Shown: piece by piece, positions 1,888 to 38,878 of the stretch
Layout of the letters: each line of letters begins with the position of its first letter
Numbering within the stretch: the stretch's first letter is position 1
From: Bacteroidota bacterium
GTDB lineage: Bacteria; Bacteroidota; Bacteroidia; J057; JAJTIE01
DNA length: 64,000 nt
Reading direction: 5' to 3'
Assembly: GCA_021300195.1 (NCBI GenBank)
Contig: JAJTIE010000008.1
Span: 1-64,000 of the forward strand
Made by a program: the position numbers and the translations under genes
The notes under the pieces: generated by a model
The model's database searches: none
The model's input: the letters and a program-made list of their open reading frames with translations, nothing else
What the model was told of the DNA's origin: nothing

Positions 1888-2556
1888 TTACTCGGGCTGC
1901 ATATCCGGCTCAAACGGACGCAATTCGTAGCCCATGGGCAGGGCCAGCTGCACGGGCAGGGCATCTATCTGTATAGCCTGCTGGCGCAGCACCAGGTCTT
2001 GCCGCAGGTACTTCCACTCCTTCAGCAGGGGGATGGCACCAGCCAGGTCTGTCTCATACCGGGCATCCTCCAGGGGGTTGGCCACCGGGTAGCGCAGTGC
2101 TGGGCTATAGGCCACGGTGTACTGCACTGGGCCGCCACCCATCTCGTGCACAAAGGTGCCCCGCCGCTGCCTACAGGCATAGGCCAGCAGCTGCACTGGG
2201 GGTAGTTCCTGTTCCCACTTCACCACCGGCTGGCCTGCCAGCCTGAAAAGGGCAACCTTTCTGCGGTACGCTACGCGGCGGGCTGTATCGAGCAGATAAA
2301 TGGCACCACTATCGGCCAGGTAGAGCAGGGGCCAACTACGGGCCGTATGCACAAAATGCCGGCCGTGGCCCTGGCTATCCAGGCGCACACCCTGCTCGGC
2401 AATGGTATAAACCAGGGTATCGGCCATATAGGGATCCAACTGTAGGCCTGTGCTATCCCCCCGCGTAAGGGTGTACCGAATGCGACCGGTAAACGGCTGG
2501 GCCACCACCAGGATGGGCAATAGAAGTATTCCGAAGAGACAGATACAAAGGCGCAT
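1888..2556 (-). CDS. Secreted protein of unknown function
   Basis: The 222-residue product starts with a clear signal peptide (MRLCICLFGILLLPILVVAQ, cleavage probably near AQ-PF). The mature part has alternating short hydrophobic stretches typical of periplasmic or outer-membrane-associated beta proteins. Its opening (FTGRIRYTLT) resembles Bacteroidota DUF4412/GLPGLI-like secreted proteins, but I cannot assign a family. No catalytic motif is visible. It is divergent from the SDR gene at 2597, with only 40 bases between the starts. Confidence 0.6.
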   Translation of the reverse strand: MRLCICLFGILLLPILVVAQPFTGRIRYTLTRGDSTGLQLDPYMADTLVYTIAEQGVRLDSQGHGRHFVHTARSWPLLYLADSGAIYLLDTARRVAYRRKVALFRLAGQPVVKWEQELPPVQLLAYACRQRRGTFVHEMGGGPVQYTVAYSPALRYPVANPLEDARYETDLAGAIPLLKEWKYLRQDLVLRQQAIQIDALPVQLALPMGYELRPFEPDMQPE

Positions 2557-2596
2557 AAGCGGCTAATATCCGAAATTTCAGTTCTTTTGCAGTTAG

Positions 2597-3406
2597 ATGA
2601 AGGATAAAGTTATCGCCATAACGGGTGCAAGCAGCGGCATAGGGCTGGCCTTGGCTCACGCGTTTGCCCGCCGGGGGAATCACCTGAGCCTGTGTGCGCG
2701 GCGCGAAGTGGTGCTGGAGGCCGAGGCAGAGAAGCTGCGTGCAGCCTACTCGGTACAGGTGCACACCGCAGCCGTGGATGTAACCGATGCAGCAGCCTGC
2801 CAGCAGTTTATCGAGGAAACGGTACATACATACGGCCGGCTGGATGTACTGGTGTGCAATGCCGGCATCAGCATGCGTGCCCAGCTGGCCGACTTGGAGC
2901 TGAAGGTGTTGGAACAGGTGATGGACGTAAACTTCTGGGGTGCTGTATACTGCGCAAAGGCTGCCCTGCCCCATCTATTGAAGAGCCGGGGTAGCCTGGT
3001 AGGCATCTCGTCAATTGCAGGCTATCGGGGTCTGCCCGAGCGATCAGGCTACTCGGCCAGCAAGTTTGCCCTCAATGGCTTTCTGGAAAGTGTGCGTACC
3101 GAGCTGCTGCATACAGGCGTGCATGTGCTTACGGCCTGCCCAGGCTTCACCGCCAGCAACATACGCCGCGTGGCACTCACCGCCAGTGGGGCGGCCCAGG
3201 GGGAGAGCCAGCGCGAAGAAGAAAAAATGATGCGCGCTGAAACTGTGGCCGAGCACATCTATCGAGCTACCGACAAGCGCCGACGAGACCTAATCCTCAC
3301 CCGCCAGGGGAAACTAACGGTATTTATGAATAAGTGGCTGCCGGGCTGGATGGACAAGATGGTCTATCGGCACCTGCAGAAAGAGGCCAACAGCAGCCTG
3401 AGCTGA
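2597..3406 (+). CDS. Short-chain dehydrogenase/reductase (SDR)
   Basis: NAD(P)-dependent oxidoreductase of the classical SDR family, 269 residues, probably cytoplasmic. The Rossmann motif TGASSGIG sits at residues 9-16, the structural NAG motif near 93, the catalytic serine in GISSIAGY near 138, and the YSASK active-site tetrad motif near 153-157. Arg residues after the second strand (CARR) suggest NADPH preference. The substrate cannot be read from the sequence. Its TGA overlaps the ATG of the next gene by one base, so the two are probably co-translated. Confidence 0.85.
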   Translation: MKDKVIAITGASSGIGLALAHAFARRGNHLSLCARREVVLEAEAEKLRAAYSVQVHTAAVDVTDAAACQQFIEETVHTYGRLDVLVCNAGISMRAQLADLELKVLEQVMDVNFWGAVYCAKAALPHLLKSRGSLVGISSIAGYRGLPERSGYSASKFALNGFLESVRTELLHTGVHVLTACPGFTASNIRRVALTASGAAQGESQREEEKMMRAETVAEHIYRATDKRRRDLILTRQGKLTVFMNKWLPGWMDKMVYRHLQKEANSSLS

Positions 3407-17797: not shown

Positions 17798-18709
17798 TTA
17801 TACGCCCTTGGCTTCCACGGTGGCCGTGTCGGCCGGGCTGGCCTTCTCCGCCTCGCCTGCTGCGGGGGCCTTTTCGCCCTCGGGGGCACGTCCTTTGGCA
17901 GGGGGCAGGCTCAGGATGTAGCTGGCCACCTGGGCACGCTGTTTGGGTTTCAGAATGCCCTCCCAGGCAGCCATCCCCTTCTCTTGTACCCCCACGGTAA
18001 TTGTGTTGAACACGTTCCCCACGGTGTGGCCATGGATCCAGTATTCATCCGTCAGGTTGGGGGCGTTTACACCCTGGCCCTGGTCTCCGTGGCAGGCTAC
18101 GCAGTTTTCCTGAAAGATGGCCTTGCCCGCGGCCAGGTTTGTGGCATCCGTCAGCAGTTCCACCGTTTCGGCAGTTACCTTATCCAGCGCACCAGTAGCA
18201 CGTTTTTCGGCCTCCAGTTCAGCCAGCTTCACCTCCCGGTCGTACTCCTCGGCCTGCAGGGGTGCGGCATTAAACACGTGAAACACCAGGAGGTACACCA
18301 CGGCAAAGAGCACGGTACCGTACAGGATGTAGTTGAAGATAGGGGGGGCGGCATTGTCCAGCTCGGATATACCGTCGTAGTCATGGCCCAGTTCCTGATC
18401 GCTGTTGGCACGGGCAGGCTTTTGGCCCGTAAAGCGGCTCCAGCCCAGGCTAAACTTGGGTAGAGACACCCGTGGCAGGATGCTATAGCCGTATTTCTCG
18501 CGAAAGAAGTAGTCCAGCATCATGATGGTAGCAACCACCAGCACAATCACCACCACCAGCAGCAGGGCCACCAGGGAGAAGAGGAACCAGAACAGCTCGC
18601 TGGTAGCCAGGGGGTTAGCACCGGCCTGGGTGGTAGCGGGCTCGGCAGCGGCAGCTAGCAGGGTGGTGCCAGGCAGCAGGCCCAGGAGGAAAAGTAGAAG
18701 GCGTTTCAT
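17798..18709 (-). CDS. ccoP: cbb3-type cytochrome c oxidase subunit III
   Basis: Membrane-anchored c-type cytochrome that passes electrons to the catalytic subunit. The 303-residue product has an N-terminal signal-like helix, helices at about 38-65 and 130-148, and one heme c motif, CVACHG, near residue 213. The methionine in EKGMAAWEG is the likely axial ligand. Proteobacterial CcoP usually has two heme c motifs; only one is present. The tail is Ala/Glu/Lys-rich. Its start overlaps ccoQ by four bases. Confidence 0.9.
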   Translation of the reverse strand: MKRLLLFLLGLLPGTTLLAAAAEPATTQAGANPLATSELFWFLFSLVALLLVVVIVLVVATIMMLDYFFREKYGYSILPRVSLPKFSLGWSRFTGQKPARANSDQELGHDYDGISELDNAAPPIFNYILYGTVLFAVVYLLVFHVFNAAPLQAEEYDREVKLAELEAEKRATGALDKVTAETVELLTDATNLAAGKAIFQENCVACHGDQGQGVNAPNLTDEYWIHGHTVGNVFNTITVGVQEKGMAAWEGILKPKQRAQVASYILSLPPAKGRAPEGEKAPAAGEAEKASPADTATVEAKGV

Positions 18710-18933: not shown

Positions 18934-21165
18934 CTACTTACTACTTAAAGATTTTCCGATTTCGGCCTTCTGCCCGGCGGGTGGCACAGCCTTTATGTCT
19001 GTACCCAGGCGCTGCAGATAGGCAATCAGGGCAATAATCTCGGTATCCATGGGCACTTGTACGGCGTTGCCCTCGGTGCTCAGTTCTTTATCCAGGCGCA
19101 GCTTTATGGCCTTGGCCTGCTGCCACAGGTCTTCCTCGGCCTTGCGCTCATACCCGGCCTCGTAGGGCACACCCAGGGTACGCATGGCGGCTATCTTGTT
19201 GGGCAGCAGCGCTACATCCAGCTTGTTTTCGTGCAGCCACTTGTAGCGGGGCATAACGGAGCCCTGCGAGGTAAGGGTGGGGTCATACATGTGGTTGTAG
19301 TGCCAGCTATCCAGATACTTGCCACCCAGGCGGTGCAGGTCTGGCCCTGTGCGGCGGCTACCCCACAGGAAGGGGTGGTCGTACACAAACTCGCCAGCCT
19401 TGCTGTACTCACCGTAGCGCACCGTCTCGTTCCGGAATGGGCGCACCCACTGGCTGTGGCAGTTGTAGCAGCCCTCGCGCATGTAGATGTCTCGGCCCTC
19501 CAGCTCCAGGGGGGTGTAGGGCTGCACACTGGCTATGGTGGGCACGTTGCTCTCTATCAGGAAGGTCGGCATCATCTCAATAACCGTACCGATGAGGATG
19601 GCTACCACACTAAGCACCATGAACTGCACGGGGCGGCGCTCCAGCACGCGGTGCCAGGCATATTTGCCATCGGGGGTCAGGTTGTGCTGCAGGGCGGGAT
19701 AGCTGTCTGGCTCGTTGGCCACCAGCTTGCCCTGCTTCACGGTTTTCACCACGTTGTAGATCATGACGATGAGGCCTACCAGGTACAGGGTGCCACCCAG
19801 GGCGCGCACATGGTGCAGGGGCAGGATCTGTAGGGTAGTTTCCAGGAAGTTGTTGTACACCAGGTAGCCATCGGCATCAAACTCTTTCCACATCAGGCCC
19901 TGCGTAAAGCCGCTGAAGTACATGGGGATAACCCACAGCAGGATGCCCAGTGTGCCGATCCAGAAGTGCGCATTGGCCAGCCGCTTGCTGTACAGCTGGG
20001 TGCCAAAGAGGCGTGGGATCATCCAGTACAGGATGCCAAAGATCATGAAGCCATTCCAGCCCAGGGTACCCACGTGTACGTGCGCCGGAATCCAATCGGT
20101 AAAGTGGGCTATGCTGTTGATGGTTTTGGTAGAGAGCATGGGCCCCTCAAAGGTGGCCATACCGTAGGCCGTAACCGCTACCACGAGGAATTTCAGGACG
20201 GGATCCTCTCGCACGCGGTCCCAGGCGCCGCGCAGGGTGAGCAGGCCATTCAGCATACCCCCCCAGCTAGGGGCTATCAGCATGATGCTGAAGACCACAC
20301 CCAGGCTCTGTGCCCAGTCGGGCAGGCTGCTATACAGCAGGTGGTGTGGCCCGGCCCAGATGTAGATGAACACCAGGCTCCAGAAGTGTACAATACTGAG
20401 CCGGTAGCTGTACACAGGCCGGTTGGCCGCCTTGGGCAGGTAGTAGTACATCAGCCCCAGGAAAGGGGTAGTGAGGAAAAAGGCTACTGCATTGTGGCCA
20501 TACCACCACTGCACCAGGGCATCCTGCACACCGCTGTACATGCTATAGCTCTTCAGGGCGGCTATGGGCAGCTCTATGGAGTTGACAATGTGTAGTACGG
20601 CAACGGTTGCAAACGTGGCGATGTAGAACCAGATGGCCACATACATGTGCCGCACGCGCCGTTTCAGGATGGTGCCTATCATGTTGATGCCAAAAACCAC
20701 CCACACCAGGGCAATGGCAATGTCTATGGGCCACTCCAGCTCGGCATACTCCTTGCTGGTAGTAATACCCAGGGGCAGGGTGATGGCGGCAGAGAGGATA
20801 ATGAGCTGCCAGCCCCAGAAGTGTATTCGGCTCAGGGTATCGCTAAACAGCCGGGCCTTCAGCAGGCGCTGCAGGCTGTAGTAGATGCCGGCAAACACCA
20901 GGTTGCCTACAAAGGCGAATATGGCAGCATTGGTGTGCAGCGGCCGGGTGCGCCCAAAGGTAGTATAGGGCGTATCCAGGTTCATGGCCGGGCTAAAGAT
21001 CTGGAGGGCCACCAGCACACCCACCAGCATGGCCACAAAGCCAAAGACCAGGGTGGCAATGACAAACATCCATACAATCTTGTTGTCGTAGCTGAAGTGC
21101 TCCACCGGTGCGTTGGGGTCCGTGTGGGGCTTTGCGGGGGGCGCGGATGCGGGGGTACTAGTCAT
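18934..21165 (-). CDS. ccoNO: Fused cbb3-type cytochrome c oxidase subunits I and II
   Basis: Catalytic core of a high-affinity terminal oxidase. The 743-residue product joins CcoN (about residues 20-480, 12 helices; heme and CuB ligands in RPLHTNAAIFAF, WWYGHNAVAFFLT, GPHHLLY and WIPAHVHVG) to CcoO (from about 525, one helix, then heme c motif CYNCHS near 590 and a Met ligand in SVMPRYKWL). The N-O fusion is common in Bacteroidota, whereas many Proteobacteria use two genes. Its ATG overlaps the ccoS stop as ATGA. Confidence 0.95.
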   Translation of the reverse strand: MTSTPASAPPAKPHTDPNAPVEHFSYDNKIVWMFVIATLVFGFVAMLVGVLVALQIFSPAMNLDTPYTTFGRTRPLHTNAAIFAFVGNLVFAGIYYSLQRLLKARLFSDTLSRIHFWGWQLIILSAAITLPLGITTSKEYAELEWPIDIAIALVWVVFGINMIGTILKRRVRHMYVAIWFYIATFATVAVLHIVNSIELPIAALKSYSMYSGVQDALVQWWYGHNAVAFFLTTPFLGLMYYYLPKAANRPVYSYRLSIVHFWSLVFIYIWAGPHHLLYSSLPDWAQSLGVVFSIMLIAPSWGGMLNGLLTLRGAWDRVREDPVLKFLVVAVTAYGMATFEGPMLSTKTINSIAHFTDWIPAHVHVGTLGWNGFMIFGILYWMIPRLFGTQLYSKRLANAHFWIGTLGILLWVIPMYFSGFTQGLMWKEFDADGYLVYNNFLETTLQILPLHHVRALGGTLYLVGLIVMIYNVVKTVKQGKLVANEPDSYPALQHNLTPDGKYAWHRVLERRPVQFMVLSVVAILIGTVIEMMPTFLIESNVPTIASVQPYTPLELEGRDIYMREGCYNCHSQWVRPFRNETVRYGEYSKAGEFVYDHPFLWGSRRTGPDLHRLGGKYLDSWHYNHMYDPTLTSQGSVMPRYKWLHENKLDVALLPNKIAAMRTLGVPYEAGYERKAEEDLWQQAKAIKLRLDKELSTEGNAVQVPMDTEIIALIAYLQRLGTDIKAVPPAGQKAEIGKSLSSK

Positions 21166-30223: not shown

Positions 30224-31507
30224 TTAGGTAGCGCGAAGCGCGTATAGGGCCTTTTCGGCTGCGTTCAGCGTTTTATCGATAAGATCATCGGTATGACAAG
30301 TGGAGAGGAACCAGCTTTCATAAGCTGAGGGGGGAATGAACACCCCAAGTGCCAGCATAGCCCTAAAAAACCGGCCGTAGGCTTCAGCATCGGCCTGCCT
30401 GGCCTGGCTATAGGTATGCACCCTGTCTACCCCAAAGTGCAGGCTAAGCATGCTGCCCTGCTGATTGATCACCTGCTGTATTCCCCTGGCATCAAACAAG
30501 TGCCTAAGCCCGCTGGCCAGTGCCCGCGCCCGTTCATCCAGGGTGGTATACAGGCCAGGAGCCAGCTGCCGGATGGCCTGCAGCTGGGTGCTGCCCGCCA
30601 CACAGGCCAGCGGGTGGCCCGCCATGGTGCCTGCCTGGTACACCGGCCCTGCCGGTGCCAGTAGATCCATAAAACGAGCCGGACCTGCCAGGGCAGCCAG
30701 GGGCATGCCGCCGCCCACTATTTTGCCCAGGGTTATCAGGTCTGCCTGGCAGTCAAAAAGCTCCTGCGCGCCCCCCAGTGCCAGCCTGAAGCCAGTCATC
30801 ACTTCATCAAAGATGAGTAAGGCCCCGGTGGTGGTGCACCGCTGCCGTAGGCCCGCCAGAAAACCAGGCTGCGGGGGCACACAGCCCATATTTCCGCATA
30901 CCGGCTCTACAATAATGGCTGCCAGCTGGCCGGCATAGGCCTCCAGCACCGCATCCAGGGCAGGCAGGTCGTTATAGGGCACTACAAGGGTGTGGCCGGC
31001 CAGGGCACCTGCACTGTCGGCTATTCCCAGGGTAGCCATCCCGCTGCCGGCAGCTACCAGAAAGTCGTCTGCATGCCCGTGGTAGCCGCCGTCAAACTTG
31101 AGGATGTAGGTACGCCCGGTGTAGGCCCTTGCCACGCGTATGGCCGTCATGCAGGCTTCGGTGCCCGAGCACAGCAGGCGTACACGCTCGGCCTGTGGAA
31201 CCAGCTGCTGTATCTGCTGGGCCAGCAGCAGCTCGGCAGGGCTACAGGTGCCGGTGCAGAAGGCGTGCTGGGCAGCCTGCTGTACGGCCTGAACCACGGG
31301 CGCATAGGCGTGGCCCAGCAGCATGGGGCCCCAGGCACCCACGTAGTCTATCAGTTGGGTTCCATCCACGGTATACAGCATGGCTCCTTCGGCCCGCTGT
31401 GTGTAAAACGGATGGCCACCCACCTTGCCGAAGGATCGAACCGGGCTATTTACCCCACCGGGCATTACCCGGCCGGCCTGGGCATATAGGTCGGCACTAG
31501 TTTGCAT
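30224..31507 (-). CDS. hemL: Glutamate-1-semialdehyde 2,1-aminomutase
   Basis: PLP enzyme that converts glutamate-1-semialdehyde to 5-aminolevulinate, second step of the C5 pathway. The 427-residue product has PGGVNSPVRSF at the N terminus, the cofactor segment FDEVMTGFR, and the PLP lysine in LGKIVGGGMPLAALAG near residue 261. It partners GluTR (gene at 37883). The start lies just downstream of the frameshifted hemB; the ancestral hemB frame would overlap this start by 11 bases. Confidence 0.95.
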   Translation of the reverse strand: MQTSADLYAQAGRVMPGGVNSPVRSFGKVGGHPFYTQRAEGAMLYTVDGTQLIDYVGAWGPMLLGHAYAPVVQAVQQAAQHAFCTGTCSPAELLLAQQIQQLVPQAERVRLLCSGTEACMTAIRVARAYTGRTYILKFDGGYHGHADDFLVAAGSGMATLGIADSAGALAGHTLVVPYNDLPALDAVLEAYAGQLAAIIVEPVCGNMGCVPPQPGFLAGLRQRCTTTGALLIFDEVMTGFRLALGGAQELFDCQADLITLGKIVGGGMPLAALAGPARFMDLLAPAGPVYQAGTMAGHPLACVAGSTQLQAIRQLAPGLYTTLDERARALASGLRHLFDARGIQQVINQQGSMLSLHFGVDRVHTYSQARQADAEAYGRFFRAMLALGVFIPPSAYESWFLSTCHTDDLIDKTLNAAEKALYALRAT

Positions 31508-31646
31508 CGGTGTATTCCTGTTGGTTTAGCAGGGTAGCAGCATACTCGGCAAAGTAGGTGGCTATCAGCTGGGCACCGGCGCGCCGGAGGGAGATCAGGG
31601 TTTCGAGTACGGCATCCTCCAGCCGCAGGGCACCCAGCTGTGCAGC
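31497..31646 (-). pseudogene. hemB: Out-of-frame C-terminal part of hemB
   Basis: In the +2 frame relative to hemB this stretch encodes AAQLGALRLEDAVLETL, then SLRRAGAQLIATYFAEYAA, the family's C-terminal helices, ending at a TAG at 31497-31499. The frame break falls at the 7-base unit GCTGCAC (31640-31646 on the minus strand). A second tandem copy of that unit would restore the frame exactly, giving a 343-residue HemB with normal spacing. Confidence 0.85.
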
Positions 31647-32521
31647 ATGGCGTATTCGCCCGAAACCTGGTAGGCAGCCAGGGGCAGCTGGCTGTGCTGG
31701 CCTAGGCGCATCAGTACATCCAGGTAGGGCAGTCCGGGCTTAACCATCAGGATATCAGCGCCTTCTTGCTCATCCAGCAGGGCTTCTCGTATCGCCTCCT
31801 GCACGTTGGCCGGGTTTAGCTGGTAGGTTTTCTTGTCGCCAAATGCGGGCGCAGATTCCAGGGCATCTCGAAATGGGCCATACAGGCTGCTGGCATACTT
31901 CGCACTATAACTCATAATGCCGGTATCGGTATGTCCAGCCATGTCTAGCCTGCGGCGTATGGCACCCACACGCCCATCCATCATATCCGACGGGGCTACA
32001 AAGTCGGCCCCTGCCTGGGCGTGCAGCACAGCCATCTGGGCCAGGATCTTTACCGTCTCGTCGTTCAGCACACGGCCGGCCCGCACAATGCCGTCGTGCC
32101 CGTGGCTGGAGTAGGGGTCCAGGGCAATGTCGGTAAACAGCGGCATATCGGGCAGCCGCTGTTTGATTGCATGTATGGCCTGTGGCATCAGGCCGCGCTC
32201 ATTCAGGGCTTCCTTGCCTGTATTCTCTTTTTTCGAAGCGGAAATTTTTACAAACAGCAGGATGCCTGCTATGCCCAGCCGGTGCCAGTGCTGCGCTTTT
32301 TCCAGGGCTTGGTCCAGGCTGTATACATACTGGCCAGGCATGCTGGATATGGCGTGCCGAACATTGGTCCCCTCGGTAACAAAGAGGGGCGCCAGCAGAT
32401 GTGCGGGTTCCAGGTTCGTTTCTGCCAGCGCATGCCGCATGCGGCCATGGTGCCGCAGCCTGCGCAGCCGCACAGGCAGGCCTTGTGGGCCATATATATG
32501 CTCTAGGGTGGTGAGTGACAT
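31595..32521 (-). CDS. hemB: Delta-aminolevulinic acid dehydratase (porphobilinogen synthase), frameshifted near the C terminus
   Basis: Condenses two 5-aminolevulinate molecules to porphobilinogen. The open frame of 308 residues has the metal/activity region DIALDPYSSHGHDG (the Cys-free, magnesium-type form), the active-site lysines in SYSAKYASSLYG and ILMVKPGLPYLDV, then PLAAYQVSGEYAML. After that it runs into HSWVPCGWRM and a premature TGA at 31595. The expected C terminus is present in another frame (see the next entry). As read here the product would lack about 40 residues, including a helix conserved in all HemB proteins. Either a recent mutation or a sequence error is likely. Confidence 0.88.
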   Translation of the reverse strand: MSLTTLEHIYGPQGLPVRLRRLRHHGRMRHALAETNLEPAHLLAPLFVTEGTNVRHAISSMPGQYVYSLDQALEKAQHWHRLGIAGILLFVKISASKKENTGKEALNERGLMPQAIHAIKQRLPDMPLFTDIALDPYSSHGHDGIVRAGRVLNDETVKILAQMAVLHAQAGADFVAPSDMMDGRVGAIRRRLDMAGHTDTGIMSYSAKYASSLYGPFRDALESAPAFGDKKTYQLNPANVQEAIREALLDEQEGADILMVKPGLPYLDVLMRLGQHSQLPLAAYQVSGEYAMLHSWVPCGWRMPYSKP

Positions 32522-32577
32522 GATAAAGGGAAGTAAATCGGGTGGAAAAATGTGGGGGGGGGAAGGATACTTGCACC

Positions 32578-33306
32578 CTAGCCCAGCTGTGCCTGCACAT
32601 AGTCTATCAGCTGGGGCATATTCAGGCCGCAGCTTGGGTAGCTAAGTGGGTGGTGGGCATAGTGCTGCCGGAGAGCCTGGCCGGTAGTAGGCCCGATGCC
32701 ATAACATCGCATGGACTGCGACCAGTAGTGCTGCCAGCCTAGCGATGCTACTACGGCACTGGGGCTACAGAATAAAAGCCCCTGTGCCAGGCTGGCCTCA
32801 TCAGGTGGGGGGGTATGCACGGAATACCTGAAATACGTATGCAATGCCCTGTACCGAATCCCGGCTTGGGTAAGGATGGCCGCCAACTCGGGCCGATGCC
32901 CGGGGCTGGTCCAGTGTACTACCTGCTGCACAGTGGCTTGGCTGCGTATGTAGTGGGCCAGTATGGCGCCCTGTGGCACCGGGCATATCTGTGCCTGGCA
33001 GCTACCGACCGGTAGGGCCGCTGCCGTAGCGGTGCCAATGGCGTACAGGGTTTCGGGTACCTGGCTGGCATCCAGGTAGGGCAAGGCAGCGGAGAAAGCT
33101 GCTGCAGCGCGTGGGCTGGTAAACACCCAGGCGGTACTACCGGGTGTGCTCGTAGTGTGCGCACCCAGCTGCTGCAAGATGCGACCAGTGGGCAGCAGGG
33201 CCGTGCACAGCAGGGGCCAGGCAGCAAGCGCCAGCCCGCGCTGCTGTGCGTATAGCTGCAGGCTGGGGGGTAGTGGGCGGGTAAGGATAAGCGGTGCGGG
33301 AGGCAT
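32578..33306 (-). CDS. hemD: Uroporphyrinogen-III synthase
   Basis: Cyclises hydroxymethylbilane to uroporphyrinogen III, the branch point to heme and siroheme. The 242-residue product is divergent, as usual for HemD. Recognisable parts are ILTRPLPPS at the start, WVFTSPRAAAAFSAAL near residue 60, YAIGTATAAAL near 90, and LFCSPSAVVASL near 180 followed by YGIGPTTGQAL. The gene lies between hemC (17 bases upstream) and hemB, which supports the call. Confidence 0.85.
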   Translation of the reverse strand: MPPAPLILTRPLPPSLQLYAQQRGLALAAWPLLCTALLPTGRILQQLGAHTTSTPGSTAWVFTSPRAAAAFSAALPYLDASQVPETLYAIGTATAAALPVGSCQAQICPVPQGAILAHYIRSQATVQQVVHWTSPGHRPELAAILTQAGIRYRALHTYFRYSVHTPPPDEASLAQGLLFCSPSAVVASLGWQHYWSQSMRCYGIGPTTGQALRQHYAHHPLSYPSCGLNMPQLIDYVQAQLG

Positions 33307-33323
33307 GGCAATATCTGTGTAGG

Positions 33324-34217
33324 CTAGTGGGCTGCCCAGGGCGAATAGGACATGGGCCTAGCCCCAGTGTGGGCCAGCCATGCCTGCCATACCCGGGCGG
33401 GCGACTGGGTGTGGAGTGTGTGCTGCCGGTATCTGAATACCTGCTGGGCGTGGTCTTTGTACCACAGCTGCAGTTTCAGTGTACGGCCCGGGGGCATTAC
33501 CTGCGCCCACACACCCAGGGGGCTATCATAGTGTGCACCCAGTGCGCTGCATACATGGCGCTCCGTCATTACCTCCAGGTAGGTGGCCGGGTGGTTTAGT
33601 ATACTTTTTAGGGCCCGCAACCTGGGGTCGTTCTTTCGGGCCACGATGGCTATGGCGCCCTGGCCAGGTGCAGGCAGCATCCAGGGCAGGTAGCTGTGTA
33701 TGCGCAGCAGCAGGCCTAGCCGCTGCAAACCCGCTGCTGCCAGTATAAGCCCATCATACTCGCCCTCGTCCATCTGCTGCAGCCGGTGGGGCACACTGCC
33801 CCGCACGGGCAGTACGCTATGGTGCGCATAGCGGGCCTGCCACTGCAGCTTTCGCCGGTGGCTGCAGCTGCCCAGCACCAGGGGTTGCTCCAGCCTGGCT
33901 CCGGGCCTTAGTAGTAGGGCCTCTGCGGCATAGGCACGCGGGGGGGTGGCTATTATCTCCAGCGCTGGGTTCAGGCCAAGGGGCAGGTCTTTGCACGCAT
34001 GCACGCCTATGTCTATCTCGCCATCTAGCAGGGCCTTATCCAGCGTGGCGGTAAAGAGGCCCTCGGCATCGGGGCTATTCAGCAGGATATCTTGCCGCTG
34101 GTCTCCCAGGGTGTCTATCACCACCTGCCAGCTGGGCACCCCAGCCTGCCCAAGCAGGCCCTGCACAATAGCTGCCTGCCTCAGGGCAAGTTCACTTCCC
34201 CTTGTACCAATTCTCAT
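33324..34217 (-). CDS. hemC: Hydroxymethylbilane synthase with cofactor cysteine replaced
   Basis: Porphobilinogen deaminase family, 297 residues. Conserved features are IGTRGSELALRQA at the N terminus, the catalytic Asp77 in GVHACKDLP, the Arg pair 121-122 in GSCSHRRKLQ, RGSVPHRLQQMD and AAGLQRLGL. The loop that holds the dipyrromethane-binding Cys (E. coli Cys242, context LGG-C-xxPIG) reads LGAHYDSPLGV, with Tyr230 in the Cys position. A Cys lies seven residues earlier (Cys223). Whether the enzyme is active is uncertain. First gene of the minus-strand hem transcript. Confidence 0.85.
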   Translation of the reverse strand: MRIGTRGSELALRQAAIVQGLLGQAGVPSWQVVIDTLGDQRQDILLNSPDAEGLFTATLDKALLDGEIDIGVHACKDLPLGLNPALEIIATPPRAYAAEALLLRPGARLEQPLVLGSCSHRRKLQWQARYAHHSVLPVRGSVPHRLQQMDEGEYDGLILAAAGLQRLGLLLRIHSYLPWMLPAPGQGAIAIVARKNDPRLRALKSILNHPATYLEVMTERHVCSALGAHYDSPLGVWAQVMPPGRTLKLQLWYKDHAQQVFRYRQHTLHTQSPARVWQAWLAHTGARPMSYSPWAAH

Positions 34218-34239
34218 CTCAAAACAGAATTAATAACTG

Positions 34240-34247
34240 CAAATTTA
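34240..34247 (-). promoter_or_regulatory. Candidate -7 promoter element of hemC
   Basis: TAAATTTG on the minus strand fits TAnnTTTG and lies 23 bases before the hemC ATG, predicting a very short leader. No clear -33 box. Confidence 0.4.
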
Positions 34248-34439
34248 TATCAATATGTATTAAGAAAAATTATATACTGAAGATAAAAATTAAATAGAAT
34301 TATATTCCAAAAAAGAGAGCGCAAACTCCAACAACAACTCAATCAATAGAATTAAATATCGAAAATCCACATAAACAAGAATAAAATATCTAATAAATTA
34401 AAAAATATTATATAAATCAGAAAAATATACTGAAATAAT

Positions 34440-34447
34440 TATCTTTG
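34440..34447 (+). promoter_or_regulatory. Candidate -7 promoter element of the reductase operon
   Basis: TATCTTTG fits TAnnTTTG and lies 18 bases before the ATG at 34466, implying a leader of only about 10 bases. No -33 TTG at the expected distance. Confidence 0.4.
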
Positions 34448-34465
34448 CGGTATAAAATTTTAATA

Positions 34466-36571
34466 ATGAGTCGAAATAATCCTTACGACCTGTCGGCACT
34501 GGATCCCCTGGTTCAGCAGGACATCCACGAGCTGGAAAACAAACTGGCAGCATTCCAAAACGGCAGCTTGCCAGATGAGAACTTTCGGGCCTATAGGCTA
34601 ACCCGTGGTATATATGGCCAGCGACAAGAGGGGGTGCAGATGATTCGCGTAAAGCTACCCTTTGGCCACCTGAAGCCAGACCAGCTGGACCGTATTGCCC
34701 ACGTGGCCGAAACCTATGGCCATGGCGTACTGCATGCCACTACCCGGCAAGACATCCAGCTGCACTATGTGCACCTGGCCGATACCCCCGCCGTGTGGGC
34801 AGAGCTGGAACAGAAGCAGGTAACCCTACGCGAAGCCTGCGGAAATACCGTACGAAACATAACCGCCAGCAGCCTGGCTGGCATAGACCCGGCGGAGCCC
34901 TTCGATGTGTCTCCCCACGCCTATACCATGGCCTACTTTTTTATGCGGAACCCCATCTGCCAGGATATGGGGCGAAAGTTCAAGATCGCCTTCTCCAGCA
35001 GCGAGGCCGATACGGCCTATACCTATTTTCACGACCTGGGCTTCATCCCACGCCTGCGCCATGGCGTTCGGGGCTTCGGGGTGGTGGTGGGTGGGGGGCT
35101 GGGTGCCCAGCCCTTTGCGGCACAAACCGTAGCCGACTTTATGCCCGAAGAGCAGATCATCCCCTTTACCGCTGCCCTCCTGCGGGTGTTTGACCGATAT
35201 GGCGAGCGCACACGGCGAAACAAGGCGCGCATCAAGTTTCTGCTGAAAGACATAGGCCTGGCCGAACTGATGAAGCGGGTGGAAGAAGAGCGAAAAGTGC
35301 TGGGCTACGAGGCCGTGGAGATACCCGAGAGCTTTGAGAGCATCAAACACCCCAGCCTGCCTACCTACCTGGCCCCCGGCACAGCCCCAGGCCAAGCCCA
35401 GGCCGAAGGCTATGCACGCTGGCAGGCCACCAATGTACTACCGCAGAAACAAGCAGGCTGGGTAGCCGTTCAGATACGGCTGTCTACCGGAAACATGACC
35501 GCCAACACAGCCCGGGAACTGGCAAACCTGGCCCGCAACTACGCCAGCGATGATATGCGGATGACGGTAAACCAGGGCATTCTGCTAAAGTACGTGCGGC
35601 CCCAAAACCTGCCAGCCCTACATGCCGAGCTGGCCAAGCTGGGGCTGGCCGAGCCGGGATTTGGCGGACTGGCAGACATAACAGCCTGCCCGGGCACAGA
35701 CACCTGCAACCTGGGCATAGCCAGCAGCATGGGCCTGGCACGCGTACTGGAAAAACAACTGGAGGCAGAATATCCCACCCTGAGTATGCGCAAAGACCTG
35801 CAGGTGAAGATAAGTGGCTGCATGAACTCCTGCGGACAGCACGAAGCCGCAGCCATTGGCCTCCGCGGTTCATCCCTGAAGGTGGGAAACAAGGTGCTGC
35901 CTGCCATGCAGGTAGTGCTGGGTGGTGGCGTAGATGCCCAGGGAAAGGGGCATATAGCCGATAAAATCATCAAACTGCCTACCAAGCGGATACCACAGGC
36001 ACTACGCATACTGCTGGACGACTATGTGCACCGTGCCGAGGGCCAAGAGCCCTACCTGGCCTACTACCTGAAGCAAGAAAAACACTACTTCTACAACCTG
36101 CTAAAGCCACTGGCTGGCCTGAATGACCTGCAGGCCGAGGAGTACCAGGATTGGGAACGGAAGGTGGACTTTGTGCCTGCCATTGGGGTGGGCGAATGCG
36201 CCGTGCCGCAGGCAGACCTGGTAAGCATTGTGTTTCAGGAAGCACGAGAAAAACTGAGCCGTAGCCTGGCACTGCAACAGCAGCAGCACTACCCCGATGC
36301 CATATACACGGGCTACACCGCCCTGGTGCTGGCAGCCAAGGGATACCTGCTGGGCCAGGATGTAGCCTGCAATACCCAGATTGGCATTATACAAAGCCTG
36401 GATACCCACCTGGGGCTATCTCAACCCTTTTCCGAGACTGTGCTGGGTATAAACCAGCAAGAACCCACCGAGGCCTTTGCAGCACACTACCTGCAGCAGG
36501 CCACAACCCTGGTGGCAGAGATAGAGCAACACTACAACCGATCGCTCCATGAAAAACCCATTGCCCCCTAG
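34466..36571 (+). CDS. Ferredoxin-type sulfite/nitrite reductase with C-terminal HEPN-like domain
   Basis: Siroheme and [4Fe-4S] enzyme for six-electron reduction of sulfite or nitrite, 701 residues. It has the two pseudo-repeated ferrodoxin-like halves (RLTRGIYGQRQEGVQMIRVK and VAVQIRLSTGNM) and the cluster/siroheme cysteines as ACPGTDTC near 407 and SGCMNSCGQ near 451. From about residue 590 an extra helical domain (SLALQQQQHYPDAIYTGYTA, LVLAAKGYLLG) resembles HEPN domains. Start at the ATG 34466; the upstream TTG lies in the promoter element. Sulfite versus nitrite cannot be decided. Overlaps the next gene by 23 bases. Confidence 0.85.
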   Translation: MSRNNPYDLSALDPLVQQDIHELENKLAAFQNGSLPDENFRAYRLTRGIYGQRQEGVQMIRVKLPFGHLKPDQLDRIAHVAETYGHGVLHATTRQDIQLHYVHLADTPAVWAELEQKQVTLREACGNTVRNITASSLAGIDPAEPFDVSPHAYTMAYFFMRNPICQDMGRKFKIAFSSSEADTAYTYFHDLGFIPRLRHGVRGFGVVVGGGLGAQPFAAQTVADFMPEEQIIPFTAALLRVFDRYGERTRRNKARIKFLLKDIGLAELMKRVEEERKVLGYEAVEIPESFESIKHPSLPTYLAPGTAPGQAQAEGYARWQATNVLPQKQAGWVAVQIRLSTGNMTANTARELANLARNYASDDMRMTVNQGILLKYVRPQNLPALHAELAKLGLAEPGFGGLADITACPGTDTCNLGIASSMGLARVLEKQLEAEYPTLSMRKDLQVKISGCMNSCGQHEAAAIGLRGSSLKVGNKVLPAMQVVLGGGVDAQGKGHIADKIIKLPTKRIPQALRILLDDYVHRAEGQEPYLAYYLKQEKHYFYNLLKPLAGLNDLQAEEYQDWERKVDFVPAIGVGECAVPQADLVSIVFQEAREKLSRSLALQQQQHYPDAIYTGYTALVLAAKGYLLGQDVACNTQIGIIQSLDTHLGLSQPFSETVLGINQQEPTEAFAAHYLQQATTLVAEIEQHYNRSLHEKPIAP

Positions 36572-37886
36572 CGCCGGCCATGTAACCCTGGTGGGTGCCG
36601 GCCCCGGAGACCCCGAACTGATTACCCTGAAGGGCCTGCGTGCCCTGCAGCAGGCAGATATTGTATTCTACGATGCCCTGGTGAACCCAGCCCTGCTAGA
36701 GCACCTGCCGCCTGCGGCAGTGCGGGTGTATGTGGGCAAGCGGGCCGCCAACCATAGCTGCCCCCAGCCACAGATACAGGCCCAGCTGGTGGCCGCGGCA
36801 CAGCAGTACCGCCAGGTGGTAAGGCTAAAGGGCGGAGACCCCTATATACTGGGCCGCGCCCAAGAGGAGGTAGACTATGTGCGGGCAGCCGGCATATCCG
36901 TATCGGTGGTACCCGGCATCAGCAGTGCGCTGGCAGGGCCTGTAGCAGCAGGGCTACCGCTCACCCAGCGTGGCCGCAGCGAGGGGGTGCATGTGGTAAG
37001 TGCCGTTACCCAGCATGGCACCCTGTCCGACGCGCTGCGCCATGGGGTGCATCTGCCCGATACCACCGTGGTGCTTATGGTGCAGCAGGTGCTGCCCCAG
37101 GTGCTACAGCTGTACATAGATGCCGGAAAAGGGCACTGGCCGGCCACACTGGTGCAGGATGCTACCCTGCCTGCCCAGCGGCAGCTATCCGCCACGGTGG
37201 AGGCACTGGCACCGCTAGCCCAGGCCTGGCTGCACAGGGAAGCCCCCACCCTGCTAGCCATCTTGCCACCCGAAAAAGAGCCAGCCCACACGCAGCCCGA
37301 GCCCAAAACCGGGCTCTACCCCATATTTCTCAAAGCTGCCAGGCTACAGGCGGTGATTGTAGGCGGCGGGGCCGTGGCACTGGAGAAGCTTACCCACCTG
37401 CTGCGGGCTGTGCCGCAGGCGCAGGTGCGGCTGATAGCCCCCCACCTGCTGCCAGAGCTGGAAACACTGGCACAGGGGCACAGGGGGGTAGAGATTGTGC
37501 AACGTGCATGGCTACCCAGCGACCTGGAAGGGGCAAACTGGGCACTCATTGCCACAGAAAACGCCGACCTCAATCTGCGCATCTTCGAAGAAGCACAGGC
37601 CCGGAACATACTGGCCAATGTGGCCGATACCCCCAATAGTTGCGACTTCTACCTGGGCAGTATCGTAACCAAAGGCCAGCTACGCATCGGCATATCCACC
37701 AACGGATACTCCCCTACCCTGGCCAAGCGGCTGCGCGAAGTGCTGGAGACCGAACTACCCGAGGCTGAGCTGGACGAGCTCCTGCACCAGCTGAAGCACC
37801 TGCGCATGTACCTGAAGGGAGACTTTGCACAAAAGGTGCGCTACCTGAATGAACTGACCGCCGAACTGATCCCCCCAAAGCAATGA
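36549..37886 (+). CDS. Siroheme synthase fusion: uroporphyrinogen-III C-methyltransferase and precorrin-2 dehydrogenase/ferrochelatase
   Basis: The 445-residue product makes siroheme from uroporphyrinogen III. Residues about 10-245 are a SUMT (CobA) domain with VGAGPGDPELITLKG, VVRLKGGDPYILGRA and VVPGISSALAGP. Residues about 258-440 are a CysG-N/Met8-like NAD-dependent dehydrogenase and chelatase domain with AVIVGGGAVALEKL and ISTNGYSPTLAKRLRE. This is the reverse of the E. coli CysG order. It overlaps the reductase gene by 23 bases and hemA by four, so the three are one operon supplying siroheme to the reductase. Confidence 0.92.
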   Translation: MKNPLPPSAGHVTLVGAGPGDPELITLKGLRALQQADIVFYDALVNPALLEHLPPAAVRVYVGKRAANHSCPQPQIQAQLVAAAQQYRQVVRLKGGDPYILGRAQEEVDYVRAAGISVSVVPGISSALAGPVAAGLPLTQRGRSEGVHVVSAVTQHGTLSDALRHGVHLPDTTVVLMVQQVLPQVLQLYIDAGKGHWPATLVQDATLPAQRQLSATVEALAPLAQAWLHREAPTLLAILPPEKEPAHTQPEPKTGLYPIFLKAARLQAVIVGGGAVALEKLTHLLRAVPQAQVRLIAPHLLPELETLAQGHRGVEIVQRAWLPSDLEGANWALIATENADLNLRIFEEAQARNILANVADTPNSCDFYLGSIVTKGQLRIGISTNGYSPTLAKRLREVLETELPEAELDELLHQLKHLRMYLKGDFAQKVRYLNELTAELIPPKQ

Positions 37887-38878
37887 AAGAACTAGTAGGC
37901 ATTGAAGTAAAATATGCCCGACTGGAACCCGCACAGCGGGCAGCGCTAGCTGCCCAAATTGCTGCAAATGAAGCAATTAGGCCCAGGCCGAATGCTCAGC
38001 CCCTGTTTGTGCTGAGCACGTGCAGCCGGTTTGTGGCCGTAGGCCTACAGCCGGATGCGGAAAAGCTGCTGCTGCAGCTGCCCCTCCTGCAGCCCTATGC
38101 CGGGGCCCTGGACCGCTACCAGCACACGGCCGACACGCTTGCGCACCTGGTGGCCGTAGTAGCAGGCCTACGCTCGCCCCTGCTGGGCGAGTATCAAATA
38201 GTGGGGCAGTATAGGGCAGCCCTAGCAACGTACGCCGAAGGCAGCCAGTACGATCCGGCACTCCTCCACCACCTGCAGCATGCCCTGCGCATGGCCCGAA
38301 AGCTGCGCCGAGTAACGCCAGAACTGCAGGGCAACTATGACTATGCCCAAAACGTGGTATCCATCCTGCACGATACAGGCTACACAGCCAGCAGCCAGCC
38401 TCGAATCTTGTTGCTCGGAACGGGCAATTTGGCTGGCCATATACGGGATGGACTGGCGGCAGCCGAGTACGGACAGCCCACTGTGGCCACCCACGGGACC
38501 AACGCGGATAAGCCACATCCAAAATTTGGAAGAACCGTCTCTTATCAGCAAGCTACGGACAGCCTGCCCCAGTACGAGGTAGTGATTGGTGCCACCAAAT
38601 CACAGGAACCCCTTATCTCTACCCCACACCTGAACCCCGGAAAGGCAGTGCCCCGGCTATGGATAGACCTGGGCTTCCCCAGCAACTTTGACTTGCCAGG
38701 CAAAACCGTAGCAATACACCATAGCCTGCAGGATGTGATGACCTATGCCACACAGGCCGGAAACGGCTGGAAGGAAGCGGCCGAAGCAAACATAAGCACA
38801 CTGGTGCAGGATTTTTTTGGGCGTGAGCAGCGAAAACCGCTTGAGACTACCCGAAACAGAGAAAAAGTCCTCTACTAA
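37883..38878 (+). CDS. hemA: Glutamyl-tRNA reductase, short form
   Basis: Reduces glutamyl-tRNA to glutamate-1-semialdehyde, the first committed tetrapyrrole step. Of the 331 residues, the catalytic domain is clear: catalytic Cys47 in LSTCSRF, then LVAVVAGLRSPLLGEYQIVGQ and LRMARKLRRVTP. The NADPH domain has ILLLGTGNLAG. Usual GluTRs have 410-430 residues and end in a helical dimerisation domain; here the chain stops about 90 residues early, although the stop is followed by a terminator and I see no frameshifted remainder. It is co-operonic with the siroheme genes. Confidence 0.82.
   Translation: MKELVGIEVKYARLEPAQRAALAAQIAANEAIRPRPNAQPLFVLSTCSRFVAVGLQPDAEKLLLQLPLLQPYAGALDRYQHTADTLAHLVAVVAGLRSPLLGEYQIVGQYRAALATYAEGSQYDPALLHHLQHALRMARKLRRVTPELQGNYDYAQNVVSILHDTGYTASSQPRILLLGTGNLAGHIRDGLAAAEYGQPTVATHGTNADKPHPKFGRTVSYQQATDSLPQYEVVIGATKSQEPLISTPHLNPGKAVPRLWIDLGFPSNFDLPGKTVAIHHSLQDVMTYATQAGNGWKEAAEANISTLVQDFFGREQRKPLETTRNREKVLY

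Follow-up and report, generated by a model that had tools for sequence, protein, structure and literature searches.

A dipyrromethane primer bound to a cysteine is a textbook feature of HemC, the enzyme that stands behind heme, chlorophyll, siroheme and B12. The cofactor is linked by a thioether to Cys242 (PMC7242693; PMC3945110), saturation mutagenesis of human HMBS has found the equivalent residue, Cys261, to be intolerant to mutation (PMC10577081) and a role has been ascribed to the cysteine in drawing the chain past the catalytic Asp (PMC8561815). The open-access literature, which misses most subscription papers, yielded no direct report of a Cys-less or truncated HemC.

We report a HemC homologue in which this cysteine is replaced by tyrosine. 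It is encoded in a Bacteroidota draft assembly (GCA_021300195.1), within a stretch of 64,000 nucleotides of contig JAJTIE010000008.1 that is referred to here as the window, and all coordinates given without a further label are those of the window. In the present work, we utilise profile alignment, structure prediction and comparison with related genomes to examine what has become of the cofactor site and of the pathway that this enzyme would serve.

Results

A HemC homologue with tyrosine at the cofactor position

The hemC homologue (33324..34217, minus strand) begins with ATG and encodes 297 amino acids. The protein scores 212.9 bits against TIGR00212, for which the cut-off is 164, and 189.5 bits against PF01379, though Pfam does not report the C-terminal HemC domain. 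Domain 3 is nevertheless present in an AlphaFold2 model built with 37 sequences (pLDDT 88.6, pTM 0.87), which took the place of a discarded two-sequence prediction (pLDDT 37.7) and displays the three-domain HemC fold; the best Foldseek match is 1pda, a porphobilinogen deaminase (E 1.5e-27, TM 0.81 over 292 columns), and the top 32 matches consist of porphobilinogen deaminases only. By descent and by fold, the protein is a HemC, and it is the single HemC match across the genome (2.67 Mb in 71 contigs, rated 98.6% complete). The protein has diverged somewhat further than its relatives, with a mean identity of 33% against 37-47% for them, and HemB shows no such excess in the same comparison. When the genome contigs were scanned with this protein alone as the query, one distant relative was returned and no close one.

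The cofactor loop reads ERHVCSALGAHYDSPLGV (codons 33563-33510, minus strand), and its first 16 residues are those of 33516-33563, in which the initial annotation had recognised a tyrosine in place of the cofactor cysteine. That recognition is confirmed by HMMER alignment to a profile built from 59 further HemCs, the window protein itself being excluded: the loop aligns ungapped with high posterior and Tyr230 (codon TAT, 33528..33530, minus strand) falls on the column of E. coli Cys242. Cysteine occupies this column in all 59 rows that reach it in the first alignment and in 97/97 canonical rows of a larger census; outside these 97 rows the census comprised the window protein itself, fragments, a domain-less protein and a HemC-derived pseudoenzyme (from genome G020, with 'T'). 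A separate collection, viral_contigs, includes 264 stretches that encode a HemC relative, 80 of which were fetched (loci L146-L225), and each of these 80 HemC rows has the cysteine. Together these counts overstate the number of independent lineages, since some rows are the same loci twice or near-identical contigs. The change in the window protein spans the whole of GGC, which becomes AHY (Gly240 to Ala228, Gly241 to His229 and Cys242 to Tyr230).

The nearby Cys223 (codon TGC, 33549..33551, minus strand), which had been put forward as a residue that might have taken over the cofactor, is not favoured, as both the alignment register, which places Tyr230 and not Cys223 in the column, and its position in a helix speak against it. 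The model retains the usual layout of the cofactor loop, with a helix at 210-225, the loop containing Tyr230 and a strand at 235-241, and Cys223 is confidently placed in the last turn of that helix, two turns ahead of Tyr230. A shifted alignment, in which CSALGAH is matched to CSAPVGAH of a relative, was rejected as a chance likeness, since in the ungapped register P233, G235 and A238 are conserved as well. Because the cofactor-bearing cysteine is absent, we do not file the protein with the canonical covalent-cofactor HemCs. It is filed instead as a Cys-less homologue, which may work, or may until recently have worked, in the manner of HemC in siroheme synthesis.

Conservation of the active site

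The remaining conserved residues were assessed against the HemCs of E. coli and of relatives of the same class. The catalytic Asp77 and the substrate-binding arginines were previously described as intact, and this stands: the catalytic pair Lys76-Asp77 (33987..33992, minus strand; Lys83-Asp84 in E. coli) is present, as are R6, R121, R122, R139, R145 and R166, so that every counterpart of E. coli R11, R131, R132, R149, R155 and R176 is kept. The description does not extend to the substrate and cofactor pocket as a whole, which has undergone the changes S81A, T127S, S128C, N151S, W18R, K158Q and G241H (E. coli numbering). Of 34 near-invariant positions, defined as those conserved to at least 97% in the alignment, the protein keeps 27, including R11, S13, K83, D84, S129, R131, R132, R149, R155, R176 and Q198, and has changed seven (W18R, A78G, S81A, N151S, K158Q, G241H and C242Y). 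Among residues invariant in ten relatives, 39/51 are retained.

A siroheme gene cluster in a genome without the usual route to heme

The genes leading from glutamyl-tRNA to siroheme lie beside a siroheme enzyme at 30224-38878. On the minus strand, hemC is followed by a divergent hemD homologue (uroporphyrinogen-III synthase; 32578..33306; PF02602, 62.7 bits), by hemB (porphobilinogen synthase; 31497..32521), which is frameshifted near 31648 so that its family match comes in two pieces, and by hemL (glutamate-1-semialdehyde aminomutase; 30224..31507), which scores 536.7 bits against TIGR00713 with a cut-off of 527.3. The plus strand carries, in divergent orientation, a NirA-type sulfite/nitrite reductase (34445..36571), the adjacent consumer of siroheme, in which PF01077 and PF03460 each match in two stretches and both the Cx5C and Cx3C cluster/siroheme motifs are found (CPGTDTC and CMNSC); a CobA-Met8 fusion (36549..37886; PF00590, PF13241 and TIGR01469, the last with 232.5 bits), which joins a uroporphyrinogen-III methyltransferase to a precorrin-2 dehydrogenase domain; and a short, divergent glutamyl-tRNA reductase (HemA) of 331 amino acids (37883..38878; PF05201, 53.2 bits) that is without the C-terminal dimerisation domain.

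Neither uroporphyrinogen decarboxylase (hemE, PF01208) nor ferrochelatase (hemH, PF00762) was matched anywhere in this genome, while both were found in each of the nine HemC-bearing order relatives included in the search. As judged from its gene content, the source bacterium has lost heme synthesis by the usual route. With hemE and hemH absent and the gene placed in a siroheme/sulfite-reductase cluster, the window HemC apparently serves siroheme only, as far as the usual heme route is concerned. Subunits of a cbb3-type oxidase, named from their sequences, are encoded elsewhere in the window (18934-21165 and 17798-18709, minus strand). Since oxidases of this type depend on heme, the cell presumably imports it or reaches it by another route.

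Signs of decay and of constraint in the cluster

The two family matches of hemB cover positions 3-284 and 275-316, in frames -2 and -1, with a register that differs by 10 nt and is short in comparison to relatives. About 48 codons at the end are read in another frame, and their stop overlaps with the start of hemL. HemB keeps 89/103 invariant residues, and seven of the losses are accounted for by the frameshifted end. The other frame still reads without a stop through roughly the final 45 codons, which makes the lesion look recent; it is also possible that it is an assembly error. HemA keeps only 21/44 residues that are invariant in 10 relatives, though its catalytic Cys (STCSR) is retained; the best class relatives of this protein have frames of about 400 amino acids or more, against 331 here. 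Taken as they read, the frameshifted hemB and the degenerate HemA suggest a failing pathway.

The hemC gene itself has an intact frame of 297 codons and ordinary GC contents at the three codon positions (0.70/0.47/0.71). Unconstrained drift of hemC was simulated to the point at which seven changes had accumulated among the 34 conserved residues; the frame remained open in 6.2% of runs without indels and, with indel/substitution ratios of 0.03 and 0.1, in 1.9% and 0.25% of runs respectively, figures which assume that all seven changes were unconstrained, although some may be tolerated, and which speak only to long neutral decay. The intact hemC frame is poorly explained by such decay.

HemC variants in other genomes

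A more drastic departure is found in genome G287 (1.2 Mb, 99% complete), on a contig of 1,114,206 bases, where HemC forms the first part of a 708-residue fusion with CobA and HemD and ends before domain 3. The neighbours of this fusion are a NirA-type reductase, hemB, cysD, cysN, cysH and a Met8-like gene, the three cys genes being named from their sequences. The same fusion occurs in ten further genomes, at 60-75% identity to that of G287, giving eleven fusions in Bacteroidia genomes (loci L116-L126, in G287, G423, G439, G419, G403, G413, G474, G442, G408, G424 and G417). All eleven are without domain 3 and Cys242. R11, K83, D84, R132, R149, R155, R176 and Q198 are invariant among them and R131 is not conserved. 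The position of Ala172, which is Ala in 59/59 canonical HemCs, is Cys in 11/11 fusions, and this residue may be a relocated anchor. Uroporphyrinogen decarboxylase (URO-D) was not matched in nine of the eleven genomes, and in the other two (G403 and G419) the matches, whose scores fall far short of those that the HemEs of relatives reach, may represent methyltransferases belonging to the same family. The window protein, with its domain 3 and with Ala162 at the position of Ala172, lies outside this fusion family. NCBIfam also includes a HemC model of 241 positions, NF002202, which we take to be a chlamydial family and which, judging by its alignment ranges, ends before the Cys column.

Further variants were encountered. 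An order relative, G020, encodes a HemC-derived protein (L115:3323-4108, minus strand) that is without the catalytic Asp/Lys and the Arg motifs, scores 34.5 bits against TIGR00212 and is adjoined by a HemD homologue (2411-3166). In another order relative, hemC is interrupted by one TAG (L006; G016:C282:4781-5650). HemA-HemC fusions occur as one open frame of about 730 amino acids (G053:C41:9265-11400, G126:C9:95339-97468 and others; families f40 and f62).

Discussion

We lean, tentatively and without holding it to be probable, towards a reading in which the window protein acts as the hydroxymethylbilane synthase homologue in a pathway leading to siroheme only and works without the cysteine thioether which normally anchors the dipyrromethane primer. 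Asp77/Lys76 would still deaminate porphobilinogen and the units would be linked into a chain in the way of other HemCs, with the primer and the growing polypyrrole held non-covalently by the retained cage of arginine, lysine and serine residues, and a slow or leaky enzyme could be enough where a single sulfite/nitrite reductase needs little siroheme. Both the HemC activity and the non-covalent holding of the primer are what we infer from an intact sole copy of the gene, with 27 of the 34 near-invariant residues, a full fold and a demand for siroheme only; the drift simulations lend support, as does the precedent of a fusion family that does without domain 3. That precedent is weakened by the possibility that Cys172 is a relocated anchor in the fusions, since the window protein has Ala at this position. 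Also counting against a working Cys-less enzyme are the mutational intolerance of the human cysteine, the part ascribed to the cysteine in pulling the chain, the changes at near-invariant residues, the frameshift in hemB and the degenerate state of HemA.

The main rival reading is that the siroheme pathway is being lost, with HemC inactive or nearly so, its anchor gone and other genes following. We regard this as a substantial possibility, though a doubtful one. It would account for the hemB frameshift, for a HemA with fewer than half of its invariant residues and no dimerisation domain, and for a HemC without the equivalents of Cys242, Gly241, Ser81, Asn151, Trp18 and Lys158, in an enzyme for which the human cysteine was found intolerant to mutation; many class relatives (149/395), moreover, have no HemC match. 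Yet full-length open frames persist in hemC, hemD, hemL, the CobA-Met8 fusion and the reductase, and in the divergent hemA as well; HemL scores above its cut-off, the reductase keeps its cluster motifs, neutral drift accounts poorly for so many hemC changes within an intact frame and the hemB lesion looks recent or may be an artefact of assembly. It is improbable that Tyr230 itself is the anchor, its phenol attacking the azafulvene of the first pyrrole to give an aryl ether or a C-C bond: the residue lies exactly on the Cys column, in a well-predicted loop beside His229, and the equivalents of R131 and R132 are kept, but tyrosine is much bulkier than cysteine and a weaker nucleophile, the intolerance of the human residue applies here too and we know of no precedent for a tyrosine-anchored HemC cofactor. 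Slightly harder to credit is an anchor at another cysteine, for which Cys118 (GSCSHRR), Cys75, beside Lys76, and Cys223 are the candidates. Cys118 replaces E. coli Ser128, next to residues that line the cofactor pocket, and the invariant Cys172 of the domain-less family makes relocation conceivable; however, no close relatives were found that would show whether Cys118 is conserved, Cys75 is shared with relatives in which the normal cysteine is still present (HSCKD) and Cys223 is predicted to lie in the helix mentioned above. We think it very unlikely that the protein has left off making hydroxymethylbilane for some other role, as the HemC-derived protein of G020, devoid of catalytic residues, might suggest, for here no catalytic residue has been lost and hemD, hemB, hemL and the siroheme genes surround the gene. 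An error of sequencing or assembly at codon 230 is the least likely explanation of all: TAT is one transition from TGT and the window comes from a draft assembly of 71 contigs in which the hemB frameshift might be an error, but one base error is insufficient where the neighbouring Ala228 and His229 and further near-invariant residues have also changed.

Considered alongside the fusions, a Cys-less but working HemC in the window would fit a broader proposal, which we consider rather unlikely to hold in full, namely that the primer link to a domain-3 cysteine is dispensable. On this view, siroheme-only bacteria would have lost the anchor on at least two occasions: in the window through a point change, leaving Tyr as an oxygen-linked anchor or else a primer bound non-covalently, and in the fusions through disappearance of the entire cofactor domain, where position 172 may supply a new anchor. 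If this were true, a Cys-less HemC in a recognisable pathway, together with a domain-less family, would make the essentiality of the covalent anchor directly testable. Should the pathway be in decay, on the other hand, the locus would capture tetrapyrrole synthesis in the course of being lost.

Comparison with known HemC enzymes

The window protein resembles the HemCs of TIGR00212, such as that of E. coli (1pda), in its family score, its three-domain fold, its catalytic Asp/Lys and its cofactor- and substrate-binding arginines, and differs from them in having Tyr230 for Cys242 and His229 for Gly241, and in its changes at S81, N151, W18 and K158. The divergent HemC of genome G311 (locus L111) is similar in its low TIGR00212 score (181 bits) and in the absence of a URO-D match from its genome but, unlike the window protein, it retains the cofactor cysteine (GYGCSRPFG); as G311 has no hemE match and keeps the residue, a siroheme-only life does not require that the cysteine be lost. 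The HemC-CobA-HemD fusions share with the window protein the absence of Cys242, the intact catalytic Asp/Lys, a siroheme-type neighbourhood (in G287) and, for the most part, the absence of a URO-D match, and are set apart from it by the complete loss of domain 3, the fusion to CobA and HemD, the lack of conservation at R131 and the invariant cysteine at position 172.
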